Below are positions 992-4,173 of a stretch of DNA of 5,090 bases, in pieces; positions within the stretch are counted from its first letter, which is position 1; the number at the start of each line of letters is the position of its first letter. The DNA is taken from assembly GCA_023140095.1 (NCBI GenBank), contig JAGLMJ010000082.1, positions 1 to 5,090 on the forward strand, given 5' to 3'. Source of the DNA: Candidatus Omnitrophota bacterium (GTDB taxonomy: Bacteria > Omnitrophota > Koll11 > Zapsychrales > Zapsychraceae). The translations under genes were made by a program, and so were the position numbers. The notes below the pieces were generated by a model. The model was not told the DNA's origin and ran no database searches. It worked only from the letters and a program-made list of their open reading frames with translations.

Positions 992-1480
992 ATGTCAGAA
1001 AATAAGGATTTAACGATAATTCTTTCCAAATGTGGTGAGGCCAACAAGGCTAAGATCATGGCTGTGAAAAATCAAGAACTTCTGGCCAAGATCGCGAGCC
1101 GGATCGGACTCTGCAACCCCAAAGACCTTTTTATCCATACTGGCAGCGCTGAAGACTTCGAGTATATTAAAAAGATGTCTTTAGAGGCCGGGGAAGAGAT
1201 GCCTTTGGCTATGGGAGGCCATACGATCCATTTTGACCCTCCGGCGGAACAAGGCCGGGTTGTGAAGCAGACTTACGTAGTGGAGGATGAAGACATGTAT
1301 ATTAATTCTGCGACCAATGCTCTGCCTAGAGTTCAAGCGGATGACCTGATCCAGGATAACATGAAGAATATCATGGACGGAAAAACTATGCTCGTGGGCT
1401 TTTATATCAGAGGACCGGTGGGCGCTCCGACCGCCTATGCCTCGTTAACCATTTCTGACACCTGGTACCTCGCGCATTAG
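992..1480 (+). CDS. pckG: GTP-dependent phosphoenolpyruvate carboxykinase, N-terminal part (ends at in-frame TAG)
   Basis: This 162-residue reading frame is the N-terminal lobe of a GTP-type PEP carboxykinase (oxaloacetate + GTP = PEP + CO2 + GDP; cytoplasmic, gluconeogenesis/anaplerosis). Family features in order are LFIHTGS (46-52), the substrate-binding arginine R89 in QGRVVKQT (aligned by eye with Arg87 of the rat enzyme), GPVGAP (141-146, like GPLGSP), and the ISDTWYLAH segment matching LTDSxYVAHS in relatives. The frame stops exactly after that His, where a Ser is expected. The family is about 600 residues and the rest of the enzyme follows in the same frame, so this piece alone cannot be an active enzyme: it lacks the nucleotide-binding P-loop. 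Start choice is clear: ATG with AAGGAGG 6 nt upstream. See the separate entries for the TAG and for the C-terminal part. Confidence 0.88.
   Translation: MSENKDLTIILSKCGEANKAKIMAVKNQELLAKIASRIGLCNPKDLFIHTGSAEDFEYIKKMSLEAGEEMPLAMGGHTIHFDPPAEQGRVVKQTYVVEDEDMYINSATNALPRVQADDLIQDNMKNIMDGKTMLVGFYIRGPVGAPTAYASLTISDTWYLAH
1478..1480 (+). other. In-frame amber (TAG) codon interrupting an otherwise intact PEP carboxykinase gene
   Basis: The frame opened at 992 continues without any other stop to the TAA at 2897-2899, giving 635 codons if this TAG is counted as one residue (position 163). The 39 codons between the TAG and the next ATG (1481-1597) are not spacer. They encode family-like sequence, including QDNLYRC just after the TAG (compare S-E-D-I-L-Y-R in relatives, from memory) and FFTNTHSKW (compare the FxxxHSxG region). 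The TAG occupies a position that is Ser in the relatives I recall, and TCG to TAG is a one-base change. The possibilities are a fresh nonsense mutation, a sequencing or assembly error, suppression or read-through, or reassignment. TAG also ends the lipoprotein gene (440-442) and the DoxX-like gene (4171-4173), which argues against TAG being sense throughout this genome. Confidence 0.9.
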
Positions 1481-1597: not shown

Positions 1598-2899
1598 ATG
1601 ACGGATAGGAAAAACAAGGAGACTTGGGCCTGGAATGTTTCCTACCTTGGGAATTGCGCTTTGATCAAAAAAGGCCATCACCGGCTGGCTAATGATGATG
1701 CGATCTACAGCCATCGCGGAGAACGGCTGTCCGAACATATGTTTATTACCGGTATGAAAATGAAAGATGGTTCTATCATCTGGACCGACGGCGCGGCACC
1801 CAGCGGCTGCGGCAAGACCACGACCGCCATGGCTGGTGATTCGTTTATCGGTGACGATCTTGCCCAGATATGGATTGCCGACGATGGCACGATCAGATCT
1901 GTCAACCCGGAGATTGGTATTTTTGGAATTGTCAAAGACGTTAATATCGAGGGGGATCCGATTCTGATGGAACGTCTGAGAAATCCGGGGTCCGAAATAA
2001 TATGGACCAATGTCCTGATCGACGACAAAGGCGTTCCTCATTGGGAAGGAAATGAAGAAGAAGCTCCTAAGAGCGGAAAGAATTTCCAAGGAGAATGGAC
2101 GGAAAGCAAGGTGGATGCCAACGGGAAACCGGTTCCGATTTCGCATCCCAATTTCCGTTGCACCATCCGTAGCCGGGAACTTAGCAACTTTAACGAAGCG
2201 GTTGCTAATAATGCCGATGGTGTTGAGACTAAGGTCTTTACTTATAGCGGCCGGGATGCGGATATGATGCCTCCGGTCGTTGCCAGTTTGACTCCCGAAG
2301 AAGGAGTGACATTTGGTGCGGATATCACCTCACAAACGACGGTAACCGAGGTTGGAGCAAAAGGAGATGTCAATCGCTCACCGTGGGCCAACGCACCTTT
2401 CTTTTTAGGGGCGCTGGGAGATTATATGGACGGGCAGTTTAAGTTCTTTACCAATCCCAAACTGAAAACAAAACCGGTTCTGGCTTCGCTGAACTATTTT
2501 CTTACTGATGAATCCCGGGGAGGCACGACAAAAAAGCTTCTTGGGGAAAAACGGGACGTCAGGGTTTGGCTCGCCTGGTTAGCCAGGTTGGCGAATAATG
2601 AAGTGATCGGGATCAAGACGGCTATTGGGATTATTCCGACCTTTGAGGAGATCAGCGATATTTTCGACGAGCTGATCCCGGATAAGGGCTACACCAGAGA
2701 ATTGTATAACAAGCAGTTTGCCCTTTATGTTGATAACATCATTGCTAGGATCGACATGCAGGTCGACGCCTATAAAAAAGAGGTCAATGTGCCTGAGATA
2801 TATTTTGAAACGCAGGTTGCTAAAAGATCGCGTTTGCAGGCCTTGAAATCGGAAAAAGGCTCGGTTGTGATCCCGGATCAATTGGTTGAAATGGCATAA
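1598..2899 (+). CDS. pckG: GTP-dependent phosphoenolpyruvate carboxykinase, C-terminal part with the catalytic and nucleotide-binding lobe
   Basis: This is the remainder of the PEP carboxykinase, in the same frame as the N-terminal part. It is shown from the first ATG after the TAG, but the homologous sequence really continues from 1481. Residues in this piece: YLGN (16-19) and the KK pair (24-25) that supplies a metal-ligand lysine; H47 in SEHM, the expected metal-ligand histidine; the P-loop APSGCGKTT (67-75) with the catalytic cysteine and nucleotide-binding lysine; the kinase-2-like GDD (85-87); and R219 in the SGRDADMMPPV segment. The GDDLA, NPEIGIFGIVKDVN and GRDxDxxPPV patterns resemble the archaeal/anaerobe-type GTP enzyme more than the animal one. 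ATG 1598 has no convincing Shine-Dalgarno at a proper distance, and a protein starting there would lack the N-lobe and its arginine, so independent function is unlikely. The C-terminus ends at a normal TAA, followed 32 nt later by a terminator. All key residues checked are present, so any inactivation is recent. Confidence 0.9.
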   Translation: MTDRKNKETWAWNVSYLGNCALIKKGHHRLANDDAIYSHRGERLSEHMFITGMKMKDGSIIWTDGAAPSGCGKTTTAMAGDSFIGDDLAQIWIADDGTIRSVNPEIGIFGIVKDVNIEGDPILMERLRNPGSEIIWTNVLIDDKGVPHWEGNEEEAPKSGKNFQGEWTESKVDANGKPVPISHPNFRCTIRSRELSNFNEAVANNADGVETKVFTYSGRDADMMPPVVASLTPEEGVTFGADITSQTTVTEVGAKGDVNRSPWANAPFFLGALGDYMDGQFKFFTNPKLKTKPVLASLNYFLTDESRGGTTKKLLGEKRDVRVWLAWLARLANNEVIGIKTAIGIIPTFEEISDIFDELIPDKGYTRELYNKQFALYVDNIIARIDMQVDAYKKEVNVPEIYFETQVAKRSRLQALKSEKGSVVIPDQLVEMA

Positions 2900-2931
2900 A
2901 GCATTGAGATTTAAATTAATATCTGTAGCTT

Positions 2932-2966
2932 AGAAGAGCGGACTTTTTGAGTCCGCTCTTCTTGTT
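2932..2966 (+). terminator. Rho-independent terminator after the PEP carboxykinase gene
   Basis: A perfect 13-bp inverted repeat (2932-2944 with 2950-2962; arm AGAAGAGCGGACT) encloses a 5-nt TTTTG loop and is followed by TTGTT. The stem has a GC-rich core, but the U-tract is short. It lies 32 nt after the TAA of the carboxykinase gene, the place expected for its terminator. Confidence 0.8.
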
Positions 2967-2983
2967 ACGGTGTAATGATCGCA

Positions 2984-3021
2984 CAAAAAAAGACTGATAA
3001 AAACCGGTCTCTTTTTTGTTT
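2984..3021 (+). terminator. Possible second, bidirectional A/T-flanked terminator hairpin
   Basis: A 6-bp stem (2991-2996 with 3005-3010, one G-T wobble) with an 8-nt loop is flanked by seven A on the left and, after one unpaired C, six T on the right. The A and T runs can extend the stem and give U-tracts in both directions. It would back up the stronger hairpin upstream and insulate the following promoter, whose weak -35 overlaps its T-run. The stem is modest, so this is tentative. Confidence 0.45.
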
Positions 3022-3046
3022 AGATATGGTCGATTTGTGGTAGAAT
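3016..3046 (+). promoter_or_regulatory. Predicted extended -10 promoter for the DsbA-like/DoxX-like/Memo operon
   Basis: TAGAAT (3041-3046) preceded by TG at 3038-3039 forms an extended -10 element (TGGTAGAAT). The best -35-like hexamer, TTGTTT (3016-3021), sits at a long 19-nt spacing, so the promoter would rely mainly on the extended -10. The predicted start near 3053 gives a leader of about 50 nt before the ATG at 3105. Position after two terminator-like hairpins and before the first gene of the next cluster supports it. Confidence 0.5.
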
Positions 3047-3104
3047 AAACTTCAATATAAGGTTTTCAACCGTTTCCGTCGCGGTTATTGACGACATATC
3101 TTTT

Positions 3105-3731
3105 ATGGCAAAAATTTCTAAAAGAACAGCTACGCTTCTGGTCATCCTTATTTGTGTCCTTTCTGTCTATGCAACGAAATCCTTAATGCAACAGTTCAGA
3201 AAGGACGGATCAATGGCGATGAGTGCCAGAATAAAGGGCAATGATCATGCTCCGATCAAGGTTACCGAATTCATTGATTTTCAGTGCTCCGCCTGTGCGT
3301 ACGGAGCTGCGTATTTAAAAGAAATGATCAAGAAGCATCCGGAGGCGATCCAGGTGGAAGTTAAGCATTTTCCGCTGCAGATGCACCGGCACGGGCTGTC
3401 GAGTTCCCGCTATGCCGAATGCTCGGCGCGGCAGGGAGGTTTTTGGCCGTTCCAGGACATGTTGCTCGCCCGGCAAGGCAATTGGATGCGGCTTGTCGAT
3501 GCGGATCCGGCCTTTTTGCGGATCGCCGATGATAGCGGTCTTGACGAGAAAAAACTGGAAGCTTGTTTGAAGGACTACACCGTTGATGAGGCGATCGAAA
3601 AGAATAAGGAAGAAGGAAAAGTATTAGGGATCAAAAGCACGCCGACCTATTTCATAAATGGAAAAATGGTCGTTGGGGGTAAGTCTTTGGAGGAGGAAAT
3701 TAAGAAACTTCTGGAGGAAAATGGCTATTAA
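3105..3731 (+). CDS. Membrane-anchored or secreted DsbA-family thioredoxin-fold thiol oxidoreductase
   Basis: A 208-residue protein. A basic start (MAKISKR) and one hydrophobic helix (about 9-24) predict export, as an N-terminal anchor or signal peptide. The soluble part opens with GNDHAPIKVTEFIDFQCSAC, the classic DsbA/DSBA-like thioredoxin entry, with active site C61-S-A-C64. The helical insert contains ECSARQGGFWPFQDML. The C-terminal thioredoxin half has GIKSTPTYFING with the cis-proline P180 that lines the active site. It probably catalyses disulfide formation or exchange in envelope proteins. C106 and C154 are additional cysteines commonly seen in this subfamily. The start at 3105 has no recognisable Shine-Dalgarno; I keep it because it provides the export signal. 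An internal ATG at 3213 has AAGGA 7 nt upstream but would give a cytoplasmic form. The gene overlaps the DoxX-like gene by 11 nt. Substrate and direction (oxidase, isomerase or reductase) are not determinable. Confidence 0.9.
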   Translation: MAKISKRTATLLVILICVLSVYATKSLMQQFRKDGSMAMSARIKGNDHAPIKVTEFIDFQCSACAYGAAYLKEMIKKHPEAIQVEVKHFPLQMHRHGLSSSRYAECSARQGGFWPFQDMLLARQGNWMRLVDADPAFLRIADDSGLDEKKLEACLKDYTVDEAIEKNKEEGKVLGIKSTPTYFINGKMVVGGKSLEEEIKKLLEENGY

Positions 3732-4173
3732 TGTTTTTGTGATCTTAAGGATTTTGATCGGTGTCATGTTCATTGTTTCGGGATTCGAGAAGCTGATTAG
3801 CCCGTATCAGAATTTTCTCTATGTTGTGCAGGGTTACGAACTGTTCCCGGCTTTCTTGGAAAATGTTGCGGCGTACGTCATGCCATGGGTTGAACTTTTT
3901 CTGGGAGCTTTCCTTCTTTTGGGCCTTTGGGTGAAATGGGCCTTGCGTGCAGCTTTGGTTTTGACGGGGGTGTTTATTTTTATTGTGTCTCAGGCGATCA
4001 TACGGTGGCTTCCCATTGTTGAATGCGGCTGTTTCGGTGATTTTATTTCGGTTCCTTTATACGGAGTTATTATATTTGACGTTGGCATATTTTTTGTGAT
4101 AGATTCTTTAATGAGGAAAGAAGGTCGTACGAGTGTTTTAAGCCTGGATCGCTATCTTGAAAATGAGGGGTAG
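3721..4173 (+). CDS. MauE/DoxX-family redox-associated integral membrane protein
   Basis: A 150-residue protein with four predicted membrane helices (about 5-22, 49-70, 73-93 and 113-129). The N-terminal R-I-L-I-G-x-x-F-x-x-S-G-x-E-K-L pattern is typical of DoxX/MauE proteins. C102-G-C-F-G106, before the last helix, is the cysteine motif of the MauE branch, which is associated with thiol-disulfide chemistry; MauE itself is needed for maturation of the disulfide-rich methylamine dehydrogenase small subunit. Next to a DsbA-like gene, the natural inference is a DsbB-like partner that exchanges electrons with it, but this is not demonstrated. The frame is open upstream to an ATG at 3658, but I prefer ATG 3721: GGAGG (3713-3717) lies just before it, and translation from 3658 would add a hydrophilic, non-family segment read from inside the DsbA-like gene. 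The 11-nt overlap implies translational coupling. The gene ends in tandem TAG TAG, in frame with the next gene. Confidence 0.85.
   Translation: MAINVFVILRILIGVMFIVSGFEKLISPYQNFLYVVQGYELFPAFLENVAAYVMPWVELFLGAFLLLGLWVKWALRAALVLTGVFIFIVSQAIIRWLPIVECGCFGDFISVPLYGVIIFDVGIFFVIDSLMRKEGRTSVLSLDRYLENEG

Follow-up and report, generated by a model that had tools for sequence, protein, structure and literature searches.

GTP-dependent PEP carboxykinases combine two domains (PF17297 and PF00821), and the solved enzymes of this type carry a P-loop that reads PSACGKT. A further motif, HPNSR, binds substrate. Here we describe a gene of this kind in a contig of an uncultured Omnitrophota bacterium; the window, by which we mean the whole stretch of 5,090 nucleotides that was analysed, matched both domains in the same order, and the P-loop of its clade, PSGCGKT, aligns with that of the solved enzymes. 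Unlike a GTP-dependent PEP carboxykinase, the frame in the window is broken by a TAG at codon 163.

An early pseudogene formed by nonsense mutation is a general counterpart of such a locus, since the window likewise has a frame that is intact but for one stop, which is private to a single contig; it differs from a settled pseudogene in that the stop is known from an assembled contig and the signs of relaxed constraint are weak. Recoding of amber codons, as pyrrolysine or otherwise, has in common with the window an in-frame TAG flanked by conserved sequence, but in the nearest genome compared (G001) release factor 1 (RF1) is present and PylS absent, and relatives have Gln at the codon. The locus also resembles cases of gene displacement at a fixed position, in which a non-homologous or distant enzyme with equal activity moves in, as ATP- and GTP-type PEP carboxykinases of relatives share the slot between a response regulator gene and a DsbA gene. 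No literature joining Omnitrophota with phosphoenolpyruvate carboxykinase was found, a result that depends on the exact phrase, and an excerpt of PMC10066038 does mention PEP carboxykinase for Omnitrophota; neither was any literature found that joins PEP carboxykinase with 'stop codon readthrough', or Omnitrophota with stop codon reassignment.

The interrupted PEP carboxykinase frame

The frame lies on the forward strand, as do all window features described below, and runs from an ATG at 992 to a terminal TAA at 2897–2899 (992–2899, 635 codons), the TAG at 1478–1480 (codon 163) being the sole other stop. With the stop written as X, 635 of 635 residues were aligned with those of the intact relative L013 at 89.6% identity, and the codon alignment of the two was gap-free, indicating that the window gene has no frameshift. 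By Pfam, the piece before the stop (992–1477), which is found among public proteins as the 162-aa P0121, matched PEPCK_N with 98.7 bits, and the piece after it (1481–2896), which holds the P-loop domain, matched PEPCK_GTP with 282 bits. An earlier description made from the letters alone (the sequence-only reading) had reported a 635-codon frame with a lone TAG at codon 163, no frameshift and family sequence on both sides of the stop, all of which was borne out. Judged by homology, a chance origin of a frame this long is excluded, and by its domain matches the gene is a GTP-type PEP carboxykinase of a divergent clade with Gln at residue 163 (PF00821 scored about 290 bits in 4 relatives of the window's type, and 462–540 bits in classical copies).

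The first ATG after the stop, at 1598, is in frame 40 codons downstream, with a GAGG a few bases ahead of it, so one may picture a split enzyme in which translation restarts past the stop, for example at this ATG, and the two pieces cooperate. In intact relatives, the bases before position 1598 code for conserved protein as well, indicating that the GAGG does not necessarily mark a ribosome site; some 40 residues would be lost by a restart at 1598, and a gene split at this point was seen in none of the other genomes compared. We regard a split enzyme as very improbable.

Codon 163 and the PEP carboxykinase slot in relatives

Residue 163 was compared in 116 proteins longer than 600 aa, taken from the best 120 of 4304 matches with 4 shorter ones excluded, among which Gln occurred in 34 and Ser in 82. 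Gln was found in all 34 proteins of the window's own clade among the matches listed, and Ser marked a clade further removed (82 of those 116, from the best 120 of 4304). At the DNA level, seven distinct genomes of the window's clade had CAG (six: L013, L014, L015, L016, L017 and L018) or CAA (one: L007), and nine of nine loci of the Ser clade had Ser codons; the window is one base apart from its closest relatives at this codon, and none of these seven genomes and nine loci shares the stop. A comparison of the same codon in related genomes, which the sequence-only reading had proposed, hence gave a sense codon in all seven clade genomes; its expectation of Ser here (Y-V-A-H-S) was mistaken for this branch, and Ser was rejected as the residue of the window's clade in view of CAG or CAA in 7/7 genomes and Gln in 34/34 listed proteins.

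A search with the N-terminal piece gave 10 proteins, among which the TAG form was confined to a single public contig of 5,090 bases, the window's own. Four shortened relatives (P0125, P0127, P0128 and P0130) had tails that could not be aligned with full-length proteins, as frameshifts would produce, and a fifth (P0122) had a short foreign tail at its end; no second TAG case was identified among these truncated relatives. Five stretches of viral contigs matched a pattern, none of them encoding a relative.

The genes around the frame belong to a recurrent order, namely a glycine-zipper gene, a response regulator, the PEP carboxykinase slot, DsbA, MauE and Memo. In the window, these are a glycine-zipper lipoprotein-like gene ending in TAG (140–442; Pfam and relatives), a CheY-like response regulator that is a conserved neighbour of the slot (454–831; Pfam and locus comparison), a DsbA/thioredoxin-like gene (3105–3731; Pfam and tblastn), a MauE/DoxX-like gene ending in TAG, with its start taken at 3718 (3718–4173; Pfam and relatives), and a Memo-family gene that is incomplete at the contig end (4195–5090; Pfam). 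Searches of the window for RNA families and tRNAs found none. G001 is 97% identical to the window over the last 778 bases of the latter, up to the end of the G001 contig; the PEP carboxykinase region is absent from G001, whose contig ends at the matching stretch.

The content of the slot varied among the 37 relatives. By tblastn, the divergent GTP type was found in the window and L013, the ATP type in G004 and G012, and the classical GTP type in G010 and G018 (the latter cut by a contig end), and in G005, G021, G006 and G023 the interval from response regulator to DsbA contained no PEP carboxykinase. In eight further genomes (G007, G014, G016, G017, G019, G020, G027 and G035), one contig carries both the response regulator and, downstream of it, an ATP type, these eight slot assignments being made from coordinates alone. 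The slot thus holds an ATP type in 10, a classical GTP type in 2 and the window's type in 1 of the 37 relatives and is empty in 4, the other 20 being unassigned. The slot flanks are 831–992 and 2899–3105 in the window, and the compared loci were L092–L096 and L098–L100; a 207-codon frame occupies the slot of G006 and G023 instead (L095:2669-3289 and L096:2487-3107).

Over whole genomes, the ATP type was above its cut-off in 22 of the 37 relatives and a GTP type was present in 9 (4 of the window's clade), with both families in none and neither in 6, of which four are at least 90% complete; G001, only 74% complete, is also among the six. These swapped or empty slots, together with the six genomes with neither family, indicate from gene content that loss or exchange of PEP carboxykinase is ordinary in this family. 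The expectation that loss of so central an enzyme would be notable is weakened accordingly by those six relatives. As a modest by-product, gene order points to isofunctional PEP carboxykinases having replaced one another at this fixed position within the family.

TAG as a stop codon and internal stops in the nearest genome

RF1 was matched in 37/37 relatives and exceeded its cut-off in 35, including G001 (480.7 bits, with the cut-off at 423.25). The PylS profile also gave matches in 37/37 relatives, of which 0/37 exceeded the cut-off (1 of 14 control genomes did), and the match in G001 falls inside the lysS frame. As far as these relatives' genomes speak for the window's own, which is outside the set, pyrrolysine and loss of RF1, both raised by the sequence-only reading, found no support, and both were rejected, with RF1 kept and PylS below cut-off. 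The lysS gene of G001 itself ends in TAG, its match extending to profile position 494 of 496 before this codon, and of the 142 open frames with a minimum length of 200 codons in 185 kb of G001, TAG terminates 22. In the window, TAG is the normal end of the glycine-zipper gene, whose homologue in G004 covers residues 1–100 of 100, and of the MauE gene, whose homologues in G005 and G004 cover 1–149 of 151. Judging from RF1, PylS and these gene ends, TAG appears to serve as an ordinary stop in the lineage.

Functional read-through would mean that UAG 163 is leaky and is decoded as Gln by a near-cognate tRNA-Gln or a suppressor, yielding a low amount of full-length enzyme. The frame past the stop is intact, Gln is the residue in relatives, and insertion of Gln at UAG by near-cognate decoding in E. 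coli is described in an excerpt of PMC6207430; the cells of that excerpt were without RF1, whereas G001 has it. No tRNA with a CUA anticodon occurred among 11 distinct tRNAs of G001, a set far from complete (10 in the first searches and 10 in 714 kb, giving 11 distinct ones including an Ala gene), and the window's own genome may carry a private suppressor tRNA. Since the stop is not conserved in relatives, nothing suggests a maintained read-through programme. Read-through is possible, with nothing in its positive support, and we consider it improbable.

For G001, the one genome scanned in this way, 120 contigs with 714,042 bases in total (some two thirds of 1.1 Mb) were then searched for stops flanked on both sides by coding-like sequence, giving 39 candidates (24 TAA, 9 TAG and 6 TGA). 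Family models were applied to 6 of the 39, the other 33 having been put down to operon neighbours or noise on visual inspection; four of the six turned out to be internal stops. A TAG at L059:1873-1875 (G001 contig C1) interrupts a SecDF fusion at a position with a sense codon in 15/15 relatives compared (Glu, Asp, Gln and others), and open frames of at least 697 codons were found in 20 of 22 matched relatives, the other two being G001 itself and G004, where the match is split between two contigs. This TAG could be taken for the end of a secD gene, which was rejected, as the whole frame places it inside the SecDF fusion. A second TAG, in murA (L047:16965-16967), stands where 3/3 relatives compared have Lys; atpD contains a TAA (L191:2589-2591; family match to profile 186, resuming at 188) and the dihydrolipoyl dehydrogenase gene a TGA (L194:6252-6254; profile 393, then 395). 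Of the remaining two candidates tested, L126 (TAA) was unsupported as an internal stop by its family model and L049 (TAA) was assigned neither way. The search for other genes split by TAG, proposed in the sequence-only reading, thus yielded two in G001, SecDF and MurA.

That two of these four internal stops are TAG might be read as genome-wide recoding of TAG, to Gln or pyrrolysine, in the lineage. The four also include TAA and TGA, the relatives' residues vary, with Lys at the MurA stop and Glu, Asp, Gln or other residues at the SecDF one, and RF1, PylS and the TAG-ended frames of G001 described above speak against it as well, so that recoding appears extremely unlikely. We would also give very little credence to a genus-wide state in which internal stops of core genes, those of PEP carboxykinase in the window and of SecDF, MurA, AtpD and dihydrolipoyl dehydrogenase in G001, are real and read through by pervasive leaky termination with RF1 kept.

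Three stop types in four essential or core genes of G001 instead suggest, more than they suggest biology, base errors that create internal stops in drafts of the lineage. A base error in the contig, arising from sequencing, low coverage or mixed strains while the gene is intact in the organism, therefore becomes a serious and strong rival explanation of the window's TAG; the internal position of the SecDF stop in particular raises its probability and lowers that of a real mutation. Consistent with it, the TAG form is limited to the window's contig among the 10 proteins retrieved with the N-terminal piece, and in all four G001 genes the family match resumes after the stop. On the other hand, G001 is a different assembly, whose error rate may not transfer, and 4 stops in an estimated ~200,000 codons would strike a 635-codon gene in about 1 case in 80. 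A base error alone also leaves the other unusual residues of the window's frame unexplained. We rate it a substantial possibility, though clearly short of an even chance.

Possible signs of decay and the preferred reading

The window protein departs from the clade at 8 columns that are at least 95% conserved, compared with 2 in its sister P0001 and a median of 3 in 35 proteins, and the intact P0035 also has 8 such departures. Among the changes, T425M and A108T fall at positions where the 116 other proteins (from the best 120 of 4304 matches) agree, and S388F alters a residue of the HPNSR motif that is Ser or Ala in the others. In a branch test, omega on the window tip was 0.23 against 0.065 (p 0.0006), with an omega of 1 not rejected (p 0.12); when the intact tips L015 and L017 were taken as foreground, the signals were stronger (p 1e-9 and 3e-5), showing that this test is non-specific. 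Neither control gene gave a significant rise on the window tip (Memo: omega 0.085, p 0.71; response regulator: omega 0.27, p 0.20). A pattern of AT-biased decay was not seen among 58 polarised window changes (18 GC to AT, 37 AT to GC). Taken as sequence comparisons, the unusual residues and the raised omega lend weak support to relaxed constraint on the window gene. The window and L013 differ at 215 codons, of which 150 are synonymous, and these many synonymous differences, together with the lack of a frameshift or second stop, indicate that any loss would be recent.

The explanation that we tentatively prefer, at a little under an even chance and slightly ahead of a base error, is that the TAG is genuine and arose by a private nonsense mutation in a gene that can be replaced. 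The Gln 163 codon, seen as CAG or CAA in relatives, would have changed to TAG in this bacterium, the base being real, and translation would end there through RF1, which is present in the nearest genome. The product would be a 162-residue piece, and as this lacks the P-loop domain, the enzyme would probably be lost. Such a loss may be tolerated in this organism, because its lineage repeatedly loses or swaps PEP carboxykinase at the locus. Of the options listed in the sequence-only reading, a nonsense mutation and an assembly error accordingly are still likely, unlike pyrrolysine and RF1 loss.

As one stop codon in one contig, the TAG is of little importance. If read-through were true, it would in our judgement be a first case in which a standard-code bacterium maintains a central enzyme despite a stop in its gene. 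The analysis also carries a caution, in that essential genes in drafts of this lineage contain internal stops with the appearance of errors. For the biology of the family, the comparative result is that PEP carboxykinase types appear to have been exchanged at a single fixed locus.
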